Below are positions 6,071 through 28,506 of a stretch of 36,683 nt of DNA, one piece after another. This DNA is from Pseudomonadota bacterium (GTDB lineage Bacteria > Pseudomonadota > Alphaproteobacteria > Acetobacterales > Acetobacteraceae), in contig JAJZFB010000076.1 of the NCBI GenBank assembly GCA_021805545.1, positions 1-36,683 on the forward strand, written 5' to 3'. The first letter of the stretch is position 1, and every line of letters begins with the position of its first letter. A model generated the notes under the pieces. The model saw only the letters and a program-made list of their open reading frames with translations, did no database searches and was not told the DNA's origin. The position numbers and the translations under genes are program-made.

Positions 6071-6275
6071 AGGGCGGGGCGTCAGTGTAACCCATCACTT
6101 TTGGCATCGCGTTACTGGCTGATGGGGTGCTCTATGCTTTACCCATCCGCTGGCTGTGGCGACACGGAGCTAAATGAGATCGACTCTGGACAAAAACAGC
6201 TCCTCGGATCATTCTGCTTTAGGTTCATATGCGCTCGATATAAGGAGTGTATTACTTTTAGGGGAGAAGTACTCC

Positions 6276-7880
6276 ATGCGGCGCCATAGTTTTGGTTCTG
6301 CCCTTAGAGTCATTGCACGAGAAGCTGCTCGTGCCGAGCGAGCTCATATTGCCGAAGCGAAGCGACAGGTGGCCGCACGTGAACGGCAAAGGCGTAATGC
6401 TGAACGTCAAGCTAAGGCTGATGTGCGGGAAGCAGCTAAACTATACTTAGAGGAGCGGCTTCAAGAGGCAGAAGATCTAAGCAATGAGGTTCTTGCCACC
6501 GAGAGAGAAATTTTAAATTTGCTCGCCGACGCTTTGCGGAATCAGGACTTCTTTGACCCCTTAAATGAGCTGCAAACATTTTCTCCACGGACATTCGACG
6601 ATGCCGAGTGGCGCTCCTTACAACCAAAATTTAGCTCCTATCTTCCGCAAAAGCCATCATTTTTTCAGGGGTTAATGCCTGGTTCAAAGGCCAGATATGA
6701 AACAGCTTGTGTAGCCGCAAAAATGAAATTTGACGCCGCGACACTTGAACACGAAAAAATAATCTCCCTACGGGATGCAGCGTTTGAAGCATTTCAGCAA
6801 TCTGAGCGCGCACGGCAACAAGAAGTTTCTATTTTCAATCAAAAAGTTCATATCAGAAATGAAAATCTCCAAAAAGGGCAACACACTGCGGTTGTTGAAA
6901 GTTACACAAAACTACTGAGTAAAACGTTTGTTCACGAAGTTGACGCAACTTCGGCAGAAGTGGGGTACGCGTCAGAATCTCGTCATATGGTGGTTGACAT
7001 AGAGTTACCAGAACTCGAAATGATCCCCAACGAAAGCTCTTTCAAATATGTTAGAAGTGGAGACAAAATAGAAGCAGTTAGACGCTCTATTGCAAAGCGA
7101 CGGGCACTTTATAGCCATTTGCTCAGCCAGATAATTTTGAAATGTATCGACTCGATTTTTCGAGGAGGAGTTAAAAGCATAGTTGACTGCCTCACCGTGA
7201 ATGGCATGCTTGAAACCATAAACCCAGCCACTGGTGCCCAGGTAAGGTTATGCCTTATATCTGTGAGAGTTACAGAGGATTTATTCAAGAATTTAAATCT
7301 TGCCTTGGTTAACCCTGAGGAATGCTTGAAGGCTTTGAAGGCGTCGGTCTCTCGTGCGCCCTCGGAATTGGTTCCAGTGAAGCCGATTATAGAACTAGAC
7401 ATGGTCGATCCAAGATTTGTCGAAACGACAGACGTATTGTCGACGCTTGATCAGCGGCTAAATCTTATGGAGTTGTCTCCAACAGAATTCGAGGCTCTGA
7501 TTACAAATCTGTTCGCCGAGATAGGACTTGATACGAGACAAACTCGTCCGTCACGAGATGGTGGGGTTGATTGCGTAGCATTTGATCCAAGGCCAATCTT
7601 TGGCGGGAAGGTGGTTATACAAGCGAAGCGATATAAGAATACGGTCGGCGTTAGCGCTGTCCGGGATTTATTTGGGACCGTTCAAAACGAAGGGGCCTCA
7701 AAGGGCATTCTCGTAACGACTAGTGGATACGGTAAGGCCGCTTACGAGTTTGCCAACGGCAAACCACTGGAATTACTCGATGGGGGAAATTTGCTACACT
7801 TACTTGTCGAACATGCTAAAATTGAAGCTCGAATCGAGGTTCCAGACGGATGGAAAGACTTGCCCGTTCACGGTGAATAA
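6276..7880 (+). CDS. Mrr-like restriction endonuclease with coiled-coil N-terminus
   Basis: The 534-residue protein starts at ATG 6276, about 9 bases after AGGGGAG; an in-frame ATG at 6174 with a tightly spaced GGAG is a possible longer start. Residues 1-70 are an Arg/Ala/Glu-rich coiled coil (AREAARAERAHIAEAKRQ). A second helical stretch lies near 150-220. The C-terminal domain, about 398-515, is of the Mrr_cat PD-(D/E)xK type, with LSPTEFEALITNLF, RDGGVD (Asp432), VVIQAKRYK (Gln449, Lys451) and GILVTTSGYG. This family cuts foreign or modified DNA. No methyltransferase or other restriction subunit is adjacent, which fits a stand-alone type IV-like role; that is inference. The gene is visibly AT-richer than both neighbours and lies beside a decayed rph, so it looks acquired. 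Confidence 0.82.
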   Translation: MRRHSFGSALRVIAREAARAERAHIAEAKRQVAARERQRRNAERQAKADVREAAKLYLEERLQEAEDLSNEVLATEREILNLLADALRNQDFFDPLNELQTFSPRTFDDAEWRSLQPKFSSYLPQKPSFFQGLMPGSKARYETACVAAKMKFDAATLEHEKIISLRDAAFEAFQQSERARQQEVSIFNQKVHIRNENLQKGQHTAVVESYTKLLSKTFVHEVDATSAEVGYASESRHMVVDIELPELEMIPNESSFKYVRSGDKIEAVRRSIAKRRALYSHLLSQIILKCIDSIFRGGVKSIVDCLTVNGMLETINPATGAQVRLCLISVRVTEDLFKNLNLALVNPEECLKALKASVSRAPSELVPVKPIIELDMVDPRFVETTDVLSTLDQRLNLMELSPTEFEALITNLFAEIGLDTRQTRPSRDGGVDCVAFDPRPIFGGKVVIQAKRYKNTVGVSAVRDLFGTVQNEGASKGILVTTSGYGKAAYEFANGKPLELLDGGNLLHLLVEHAKIEARIEVPDGWKDLPVHGE

Positions 7881-26539: not shown

Positions 26540-27439
26540 TTACGCTGGCGCCGCCTGCAATGCAAGGGCAGCGCTGGCAAAAGCCGCGGCTTCGTCAAGT
26601 GCTTTTCGTGCTTCTGGCAACAGCGCCTGGCTGACCTGCCATACATGGGGCATGTCCGGCCACCGGCTCAACTCCACCCGCACCCCCGCCGCGCGGGCGC
26701 GTTCAGCCAAGCGGGTGGAATCATCCAGCAATATTTCCATCTCGCTCACCTGTATAAGCAAGGGCGGCAGCCCGGCTAAATCGCCATAAAGCGGCGAGGC
26801 CAGCGGGTGTTTGGGGTCCGCGCCCGCAAGGTAGAGCGCGGCACCCTCGGTAATGCGCGGGGCATAGAGCATGCTCTCGCTCTGCGCGTTGGTTTGCAGC
26901 GAGGCCCCGGTGCAGGCCAGGTCCGTCCAGGGCGAGAATAATATGGCGCAGCACGGCATGGGCAGTTTGTGCTGCCTGGCCGCCAGCAAGGTGGCCAGGG
27001 TCAGCCCGCCCCCGGCGGAATCTCCGGCAATCACCAGTTTTTCCGGGGGCGCGCGGGCCAGCATGGCGCGGTAGGCGGCCAGCGCATCCTCCACGGCGGC
27101 GGGAAAAGGGTGTTCCGGCGCCAGCCTGTATTCCGGCGCGAATACATCAAAACCGCGTATGGCAAAGGCGCCGGTTATCGGCCGGTGGGTGCGCGGCGAG
27201 CAGGTGAAATAGCCGCCCCCGTGCAAGTAAAGCATCCCAGCCATGGTTTCCGCCTCGCCCTTTACCCATTCTCCTTCAACGCCATTCATCCTGCCCGGCG
27301 CAAAACTGGCGCCCGGCACGCGCGGCGGCGGTTTACCCAGAATGCCGCGCAAATCGGTGGCCGAGGCCGCCCCCGCCAGGCGGCGCTTCACGAACAGGCG
27401 CAGAAACGCGTGCACAAAGTAAGACTGCCAGCTCGGCAT
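26540..27439 (-). CDS. Alpha/beta hydrolase, hormone-sensitive-lipase family esterase
   Basis: The 299-residue enzyme shows the oxyanion motif HGGGYF near 73-78 and the nucleophile elbow GDSAGGG near 138-144 with catalytic Ser. The acid probably lies in the SEMEILLDDS segment and the histidine is in DMPHVWQ. These are the marks of family IV bacterial esterases, which act on short acyl esters or, in some cases, hydroxyalkanoate oligomers. The start ATG 27439 follows GGAGGG closely. It lies upstream of rpmE on the same strand, 60 bases apart. The true substrate is unknown. Confidence 0.9.
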   Translation of the reverse strand: MPSWQSYFVHAFLRLFVKRRLAGAASATDLRGILGKPPPRVPGASFAPGRMNGVEGEWVKGEAETMAGMLYLHGGGYFTCSPRTHRPITGAFAIRGFDVFAPEYRLAPEHPFPAAVEDALAAYRAMLARAPPEKLVIAGDSAGGGLTLATLLAARQHKLPMPCCAILFSPWTDLACTGASLQTNAQSESMLYAPRITEGAALYLAGADPKHPLASPLYGDLAGLPPLLIQVSEMEILLDDSTRLAERARAAGVRVELSRWPDMPHVWQVSQALLPEARKALDEAAAFASAALALQAAPA

Positions 27440-27486
27440 TGGTCCCTCCGCCGCAATAGGGTAGGGCTGAGTTTAGACATGAGGCC

Positions 27487-27494
27487 TTATTTTG
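27487..27494. repeat. Target-site duplication, left copy (TTATTTTG)
   Basis: These eight bases directly border the left inverted end of the 27.5-kb element and are repeated exactly at 28118-28125, directly after the right end. Confidence 0.85.
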
Positions 27495-28117
27495 GGCACT
27501 TATATACTTGACTAAGTATATGAAAATTAATGGGAATCTATCTTTCCGATTTGGTAGGTAAAACTCACATTCGACTTATTGAAAGTTTGTCTCTGGATTT
27601 GCGAAACCTCGCTGATCGAAATCAGAACGTGACTTGGTGTGATCCAACTGATCTTTGGATACCAAGGCGGATTGGGTGAATTTATATCAGGTGCAGTCGG
27701 AGTGTATGCAAATACTATGTGGCTGAAAATGCTGCCCGCCGGTCGATAATGGATGAGTATAGTTCCAGGATCACCTGTCAAAAGGCTGCAATAACGTGCG
27801 TCCATTGCAATTTTGTCGTTGGAAGGTCCGTTGAGGATAACGTGGGGTCCGAGAAATTCACAGAGACCATAATTGGCACGCAAGTGTTGAAAACCGGCAA
27901 CTGAAGCAGCACTCACAATCACGACCAGGATAGCAGAAATCAGTAACCAGCGGGGCAATTTACCTACCTAAGCTCAGAATACGATTTACATCGCTATCGA
28001 GAAATCTGTCTGGCAACGGTAGCAGTCAGACACCGTTTCAGCAACGATGGGAAACGTGAAGTTCCCTATGTTATTGAAAAAGTTATAGAGCTTTACTTAG
28101 TCAAGTATATAGTTGCC
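27495..28117. mobile_element. 623-bp non-autonomous transposable element with a passenger gene
   Basis: The ends are inverted repeats of 23 bases, 27495-27517 and 28095-28117, that start GGCA and share the perfect 17-base TATATACTTGACTAAGT; two bases differ near the tip. The element is bordered on both sides by TTATTTTG, a perfect 8-bp target duplication. The inside is clearly AT-richer than the flanks. No transposase is encoded, so it must be moved in trans. Several IS families make 8-bp duplications with GG ends, including IS1595 and ISL3; AT-rich targets and passenger genes fit IS1595 best, but the assignment is open. It carries a single gene, 27527-27958. It landed between the esterase promoter region and lrgA. 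Confidence 0.85.
27527..27958 (-). CDS. Unknown membrane-anchored or secreted protein, passenger of the transposable element
   Basis: The 143-residue protein starts at a TTG (27958) preceded by TAGGTAGG. Residues 4-22 form one hydrophobic helix (LLISAILVVIVSAASVAGF) that is a signal or anchor. The rest would be outside the cell membrane and is rich in Ser, Ile, Pro and aromatic residues, with cysteines at 33 and 58. I recognise no domain. The gene fills most of the element and its stop lies 10 bases inside the left inverted end, so it moves with the element. Base composition is unlike the host. Confidence 0.6.
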   Translation of the reverse strand: MPRWLLISAILVVIVSAASVAGFQHLRANYGLCEFLGPHVILNGPSNDKIAMDARYCSLLTGDPGTILIHYRPAGSIFSHIVFAYTPTAPDINSPNPPWYPKISWITPSHVLISISEVSQIQRQTFNKSNVSFTYQIGKIDSH

Positions 28118-28125
28118 TTATTTTG
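28118..28125. repeat. Target-site duplication, right copy (TTATTTTG)
   Basis: Exact partner of 27487-27494, directly after the right inverted end of the element. Confidence 0.85.
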
Positions 28126-28152
28126 TGGGGGCAAGAGTTAAGGAGGCGGCAA

Positions 28153-28506
28153 ATGATCCGTGCATTGGCGATTTTGCTTCTGTGCCAGCTAGCCGGAACC
28201 GTGTTGCAGGAAGCATTTGGCTTGCCCATGCCTGGGCCGGTGATTGGCTTCGTCCTGTTGCTGGCGGCTTTTTTTGTAACCAAGGGGCCGGACACGGCGC
28301 TGCACGATACGGCACAAGGCCTGCTCAAGCATCTCGGCCTGCTATTTGTGCCTGCTGGCGTGGGGGTGGTGGGCATGCTCGGCCTGCTCCGGCAAAATGC
28401 GCTGGCGCTGCTCATTGCCATCCCTGTTTCCACGGTGCTTGGCCTGCTGGTCACGGGCACCATCATGCAATGGTTCATGCGCCGGGCGGGCGCGCCCAAT
28501 GCATAG
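28153..28506 (+). CDS. lrgA: CidA/LrgA family holin-like membrane protein
   Basis: The 117-residue protein has four membrane helices and the family motif LPMPGPVIGFVLLL near 24-37. The start ATG 28153 is fixed by AGGAGG at 28141-28146. CidA/LrgA proteins work with a CidB/LrgB partner in murein hydrolase control or, in later work, in transport of small acids such as pyruvate or glycolate. It overlaps lrgB by 8 bases. The transposable element ends only 35 bases upstream, so the original promoter may have been displaced. Confidence 0.92.
   Translation: MIRALAILLLCQLAGTVLQEAFGLPMPGPVIGFVLLLAAFFVTKGPDTALHDTAQGLLKHLGLLFVPAGVGVVGMLGLLRQNALALLIAIPVSTVLGLLVTGTIMQWFMRRAGAPNA

Follow-up and report, generated by a model that had tools for sequence, protein, structure and literature searches.

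A probable mobile insertion cassette with IS1595-type ends in an Acetobacteraceae genome, and related transposase-less cassettes elsewhere

A 623-bp element lying between two genes of an Acetobacteraceae genome is, very probably, a mobile insertion cassette (MIC): a non-autonomous unit made of two IS1595-type ends around one ORF and presumably mobilised in trans. It occupies positions 27495-28117 of the window, by which we mean the whole 36,683-nucleotide stretch of DNA that was analysed. According to the excerpted text of PMC3913671, MICs have inverted ends, no transposase nearby and usually a target duplication, and MIC231A1 is moved in trans by the IS231A transposase; an excerpt of PMC3129680 also treats MICs. 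Counting the window's, we collected 22 transposase-less cassettes, many of which share one target octamer.

Results

Structure of the element and its insertion site

The element shows the features of a MIC, namely bracketing inverted repeats, a target duplication and no transposase gene, together with two traits of the IS1595 type, an 8-bp duplication and ends starting with GG (Table 1). The perfect 8-bp repeat on both flanks, the AT-rich interior (G+C of 0.43 versus 0.64 in the flanks) and the single ORF without any transposase among the element's ORFs had all been described in the initial annotation, and we recovered each of them. The two ends are identical at 22 of 24 positions, with mismatches at positions 5-6 and a perfect 18-bp core; the two differences counted initially stand, and the end length of 23 bp and core of 17 bases given with them become 24 and 18. 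Such a structure (two such arms no more than 3 kb apart, with an 8-bp duplication) is expected about 1.5e-8 times by chance in the window, a figure that assumes equal base frequencies and that AT-rich sequence pushes up somewhat. Searching the element's own genome (G000) for the end pattern with up to three mismatches returned two occurrences, both of them the element's own ends, and none for the reversed control. The cassette is present in one copy there, and no further copy was found in the other 99 genomes searched, where three gave end-length matches and G085 a 28-base inner match. An inner 13-nt inverted repeat (27550-27562 and 27959-27971, 92% complementary) brackets most of the ORF; we considered it as a sign of a nested element and set it aside as probable chance.

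Table 1. Features of the element (positions in the window)
Feature	Position	Strand	Remarks
Left 8-bp target duplication, TTATTTTG	27487-27494		perfect
Left 24-bp terminal inverted repeat, GGCACTTATATACTTGACTAAGTA	27495-27518	+	
143-aa ORF, putative passenger	27527-27958	-	TTG start; no Pfam or NCBIfam match
Right 24-bp terminal inverted repeat, minus strand reading GGCAACTATATACTTGACTAAGTA	28094-28117	-	
Right 8-bp target duplication, TTATTTTG	28118-28125		perfect

The upstream neighbour (26540-27439, minus strand) is presumably alpha/beta-hydrolase-like and the downstream one (plus strand) presumably CidA/LrgA-like, both named by the look of the protein; taking the ATG of the latter at 28153, 27 bases separate it from the right octamer. 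Much farther upstream, a 568-aa ORF (6174-7880) has a C-terminal part that we take, by eye, to resemble an Mrr-type restriction endonuclease domain. The two flanking genes are 713 bp apart with the insert, and would be 82 bp apart after removal of the cassette and one octamer. The CidA-like gene is present in 26 of the 38 genomes of the genus (26 loci counted, three secondary matches dropped). One of these loci is the window's, and 12 relatives keep the gene pair 70-194 bp apart, without an insert; the outcome that the initial annotation had named as refuting, the element fixed at one place in all relatives, did not arise. In three others (G023, G006 and G004) the pair is 940-971 bp apart, with no end-like sequence in the gaps of about 950 bp, and the remaining 10 loci have no adjoining hydrolase. 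The spacer is too diverged for the empty site to be demonstrated at the level of the octamer itself.

The ORF of the element

The ORF covers 69% of the element and is preceded, four bases upstream of its TTG, by a Shine-Dalgarno-like AGGTAGG. A longest ORF of this length was reached in one of 300 dinucleotide shuffles of the element. Beyond length there is little coding signal: G+C is nearly flat across codon positions (0.48/0.44/0.45), and positions 1 and 2 differ by 0.07-0.26 in eight sister passengers. No relative emerged from Pfam or NCBIfam, nor from plasmids, phages, viral contigs or genome contigs. The family search returned one weak match, in G309 (E 0.008, 30% identity), which contains an internal stop and which we take as chance. 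Fold prediction without an alignment (mean pLDDT 44.5) draws an N-terminal helix and strands, at a confidence too low to use; the product may be a small membrane-anchored protein. That the ORF is a working cargo gene is plausible.

We also considered that the ends might supply a promoter, given that they hold a -35-like hexamer (TTGACT/TTGGCT). In 18 cassettes and two complete elements, a -10 sought 16-18 bp inward scored on average 2.4 of 6 at the end upstream of the ORF and 2.55 at the other. This candidate was rejected, the ORF-upstream end scoring no better than the opposite one; the two complete elements score 4 and 5 of 6 on the transposase side. A scan of 27440-28200 found one promoter-like site, on the plus strand (shuffle mean 1.4), and one terminator-like site at 28049-28066 (shuffle mean 0.6).

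Complete elements with matching ends

The initial annotation had proposed looking for a full-length copy with a transposase, and the genus yielded two such elements outside the window's own genome. They lie in G010:C33 (2445 bp) and G026:C31 (1926 bp), where matching ends enclose a transposase and further ORFs. Both transposases match PF12762 (E of 4.6e-37 and 5.9e-37, respectively) and also PF12760, G026 falling just below the cut-off for the latter; the G010 enzyme, the only one scanned, reaches 175.6 bits with NF033547 (cut-off 75). Between IS1595 and ISL3, the families named initially, these matches point to IS1595. The target duplication is perfect in G026 and is 8 bp long in G010 only if one end starts a base earlier. 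The ends of the window element differ from those of the G026 element at two of 24 positions on one side and five on the other, the former being the closest complete-element end to the cassette's that we saw, albeit in another species.

Additional ORFs are the rule in this group: 18 of the 19 transposase-bearing pairs analysed, other phyla included, have at least one further ORF of at least 60 aa (ORFs called mechanically; a viral pair that occurs in two contigs entered the count once). Short, charged ORFs near 60 aa in length recur in the complete elements L047 and L049, where they lie beside the transposase, and in L097, L112, L130, L145 and L158, and are perhaps an accessory gene; the only pairs with detected sequence similarity are G010-G026 and G010-L158.

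The type of end mostly goes with the enzyme. A search of the genus for IS1595 transposases matched 22 of 38 genomes, and four of the five transposases at least 52% identical to that of G026 have ends of the CTAAG/CTCAG type, against none of the ten with visible ends that are at most 41% identical; no ends were found for the remaining matches in that class. This pairing has an exception in the fifth close match, G014:C19 (over an 89-residue stretch), which lies between sequences like the ends of G000:C87 and not of the CTAAG type.

The element's own genome gave three IS1595 transposase matches, none of them on the window's contig, and holds three complete IS1595 elements (C26, C87 and C75), each with perfect 8-bp duplications. 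Compared with the cassette's, their ends show 5-10 differences in 24 positions, 3-5 of them in the inner six; the enzymes share 36-41% identity with that of G026. No complete element with matching ends was found in this genome, whose assembly is 97.75% complete. The earlier suggestion of an autonomous element elsewhere in the genome is thus borne out as to the existence of related IS1595 elements with such ends and not as to their location. The element with matching ends may have been lost, or may lie in the missing part of the assembly; alternatively, either the cassette is an immigrant or one of the genome's own enzymes tolerates the differences in the ends.

Two of these resident elements have passengers of their own. 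G000:C26 (L198:4548-8196) carries an N6-methylase/TaqI_C-like protein of 625 aa next to a 254-aa protein that has no Pfam match, the two possibly forming a restriction-modification pair, and G000:C75 (L200:5785-8647) carries an HTH/Peptidase_M78 protein and a DUF4411 protein, perhaps a toxin-antitoxin pair.

A set of transposase-less cassettes

The ends occur in related genomes, as had been anticipated. Allowing three mismatches, the end pattern was present in 11 of the 38 genomes of the genus, own included (hence 10 of the 37 others), with none for the reversed control. A looser pattern with up to two mismatches was found in nine of 397 family genomes (six of 102 genera), the control giving two matches. 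With one genome per species, the exact 22-base end pattern retrieved 61 stretches, in records from several phyla.

Besides the window's, the cassettes come from G013 (six, one of them through its twin L126), G015 (four) and G034 (two), with single ones in G001, G033, G029, G005, G253, G156, G051, an Akkermansiaceae MAG (L147) and Acidisphaera sp. S103 (L156). We left out a 44-bp hairpin (L100), a 563-bp pair enclosing a partial transposase (L109) and partnerless single ends. The hairpin, at L100:5272-5315 of a viral contig, consists of two abutting ends with a perfect 8-bp duplication (AAGAGGAA) and is the smallest derivative seen. Of 37 single ends in other contigs used as queries, one gave a partner with duplication, under strict criteria and with many ends near the edge of the available stretch.

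The 8-bp duplication is perfect in 17 of the 22 cassettes, has one mismatch in three (G034:C14, G005 and L156), two in one (G001) and four in one (G029). The middle cassette of G015 was scored as perfect, since its right tip, although worn, stops right at the octamer; with the tip set one base off, there are three mismatches. The duplicated octamers vary between elements (TTATTTTG, TTACTTAT, TAAACTAA and others). In 15 of the 20 cassettes tested, the longest ORF was reached by at most six of 300 dinucleotide shuffles; in the other five (G013:C3, G015:C35a, G156, L147 and L156), 13 to 81 of 300 shuffles reached it. None of the 17 cassette ORFs scanned attained a Pfam cut-off.

A recurring target octamer and a row of cassettes

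Eleven sites, with 13 of the 22 cassettes, have AAAACTTT, read on either strand, as their octamer; at G034:C14 one of the two flanking copies reads AGAACTTT. Eight of the 11 sites have a perfect stem of at least six pairs no more than 50 bases away, always to the same side of the octamer; the sites without it are G015:C35, G015:C38 (imperfect hairpin by eye) and G034:C16. The octamer of the window element, TTATTTTG, differs from AAAACTTT.

A dispersed motif, made of a T/A hairpin and CCAAAAACTTTTG (L210-L239), was seen in five of the eight genomes searched, at 5-15 copies each. Unoccupied CCAAAAACTTTTG copies number 14 in G013, 15 in G015, five in G034, 10 in G253 and seven in G156, with 0-1 in the control, and there are none in G033, G026 or the window's own genome, G000. 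A stem within 45 bases on that side accompanies 24 of the 30 CCAAAAACTTTTG copies examined versus 13 of 174 nearby control stretches.

G015:C35 (L040:9032-10823) contains a row of three cassettes, all facing the same way; AAAACTTT flanks the row on both sides and separates each cassette from the next. Searching 385 genomes of the class for this junction pattern gave no other row; the sample did not include G013 and G015, so that this says little about the genus.

Movement and selection in a sister cassette

The gene of the G001 cassette recurs in five of 397 family genomes. Its copies in G034 (76% amino acid identity) and G253 (45%) are in 499-bp cassettes with IS1595-type ends at AAAACTTT, the G034 copy having worn ends and one mismatch in its duplication; the remaining three copies have no such ends within 1.5 kb. 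The flanks of the G001, G034 and G253 cassettes match one another neither as DNA (E 1e-3) nor as protein (E 1e-5, 1.4 kb a side): this sister cassette sits at three unrelated places. The G001 and G034 cassettes are 75.6% identical over nearly their whole length, and their passengers differ with a dN of 0.16 and a dS of 0.79, which indicates purifying selection on the sister passenger; dS is saturated in both comparisons with G253.

The G013:C3 cassette suggests where such units come from. Each of the two passengers of the complete G026 element has a relative in it (46.7% identity over 105 aa and 67% over 58 aa), with order and orientation unchanged, and there is no transposase. The simplest reading is that of a complete element minus its transposase half, the reverse direction being also possible.

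Discussion

Our results argue strongly that the window element is a mobile insertion cassette. Its mobilisation in trans, the enzyme responsible, and the expression and usefulness of its ORF are what we infer from these comparisons. An IS1595-family DDE transposase would bind both cassette ends in trans, the enzyme of G026 being the best candidate on account of its nearer end, and the cassette would be joined to a staggered 8-bp cut in AT-rich DNA, giving the 8-bp duplication. Cassettes could arise from complete passenger-bearing IS1595 elements by loss of the transposase half, as G013:C3 suggests. Conceivably, the cassette depends instead on a resident enzyme, one of the three IS1595 transposases of its genome, even though the ends of their elements differ, since all three elements are complete with perfect duplications and the best end of C26, with five differences in 24 positions, is no farther off than the second end of G026. 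We consider this improbable: the resident ends diverge at 5-10 of the 24 positions and at 3-5 of the inner six, the resident enzymes are distant from the G026 type, and within the genus the enzyme mostly predicts the type of end.

The nature of the ORF leaves more room for a different reading, in which the ends and the duplication are real and the element is a MITE-like deletion remnant whose 143-aa ORF is decayed or due to chance, with no working gene. The ORF does have a TTG start, flat codon-position G+C and no convincing relative, in five of the 20 cassettes tested the longest ORF is matched by 13 to 81 of 300 shuffles, and gene-less derivatives do exist, as the end-to-end hairpin of L100 attests. 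We nevertheless hold such a remnant to be somewhat unlikely, in view of the length of the ORF, rarely reached by shuffling in this element or in 15 of the 20 cassettes, of the share of the element that it fills, of the Shine-Dalgarno-like sequence upstream and of the purifying selection on a sister passenger. A tyrosine recombinase system resembling loxP or integron cassettes, in which the arms would be binding arms, the 8-bp spacer the crossover and circles would be exchanged, could account for the exact AAAACTTT between neighbours in the row of G015:C35 and for an octamer common to 13 of the 22 cassettes. It is very hard to reconcile with the rest of the data, and we give it hardly any credence: the same kind of ends encloses IS1595 DDE transposases in complete elements, octamers vary by element as target duplications do, and unoccupied AAAACTTT motifs, inspected by eye, have no such arms.

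As a mobile insertion cassette, the window copy alone belongs to a kind already known. With the MICs described in the excerpts we cite (MIC231 of IS231, mic-qnrD and mic-qnrS2) the cassettes share inverted ends, a putative passenger replacing the transposase and a target duplication. They differ from them in having IS1595-type ends with an 8-bp duplication, mostly unrelated small genes without a Pfam family, more than half of their number on one target octamer, and three in a row in one genome. Passenger-bearing IS copies have been termed transporter IS, in a passage of PMC3129680 that cites Siguier et al. 2009. In the excerpted text of PMC12561309, ISApl4, an IS1595 element, has mostly A/T-rich 8-bp duplications and ends starting with GGGG. 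Transporter IS of the IS1595 family, as these excerpts present them, are like our complete relatives in their IS1595 transposase, their passengers and their mostly AT-rich 8-bp duplications; unlike them and the autonomous members of the family, the window element lacks a DDE_Tnp_IS1595 transposase.

Two other classes of small elements invite comparison. MITEs are short and non-autonomous, with inverted ends and a target duplication, all of which the cassettes share. They part from MITEs in that 15 of the 20 tested have an ORF of a length that shuffles seldom reach, and in that they are single or few-copy in the genomes seen rather than present in many identical copies. Integron gene cassettes are small one-gene units that can line up in one orientation. 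The likeness is one of outline, small units with a single gene of unknown function and a one-orientation row in G015:C35, whereas the cassettes described here share their ends with DDE-type elements and have variable target duplications.

This likeness leads us to a tentative proposal, which we would not yet back over its contrary: that Acidocella and its relatives may hold an integron-like gene-cassette economy run on a DDE transposase, in which IS1595-type ends would package single small genes, insert them at a preferred target, AAAACTTT, beside a dispersed terminator-like hairpin, and build rows without an integrase. As each insertion duplicates the octamer, the target would renew itself and cassettes could pile up. 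In the literature searched, whose scope left out most subscription papers, we met no IS1595-type MICs described as sharing a target octamer or as standing in rows, and the cassette set is apparently a new form of the known kind.

Mostly 300-900 bp long, with one gene and no transposase, such cassettes can easily pass for small hypothetical genes of the usual sort. Should the ends prove to mark a wider population, they would serve as a simple sequence tag with which to find mobile genes whose function is unknown, and would open to test the exchange of gene cassettes through a transposase in place of an integrase. The octamer that recurs next to a hairpin offers, in addition, a target rule for an IS1595-type enzyme.
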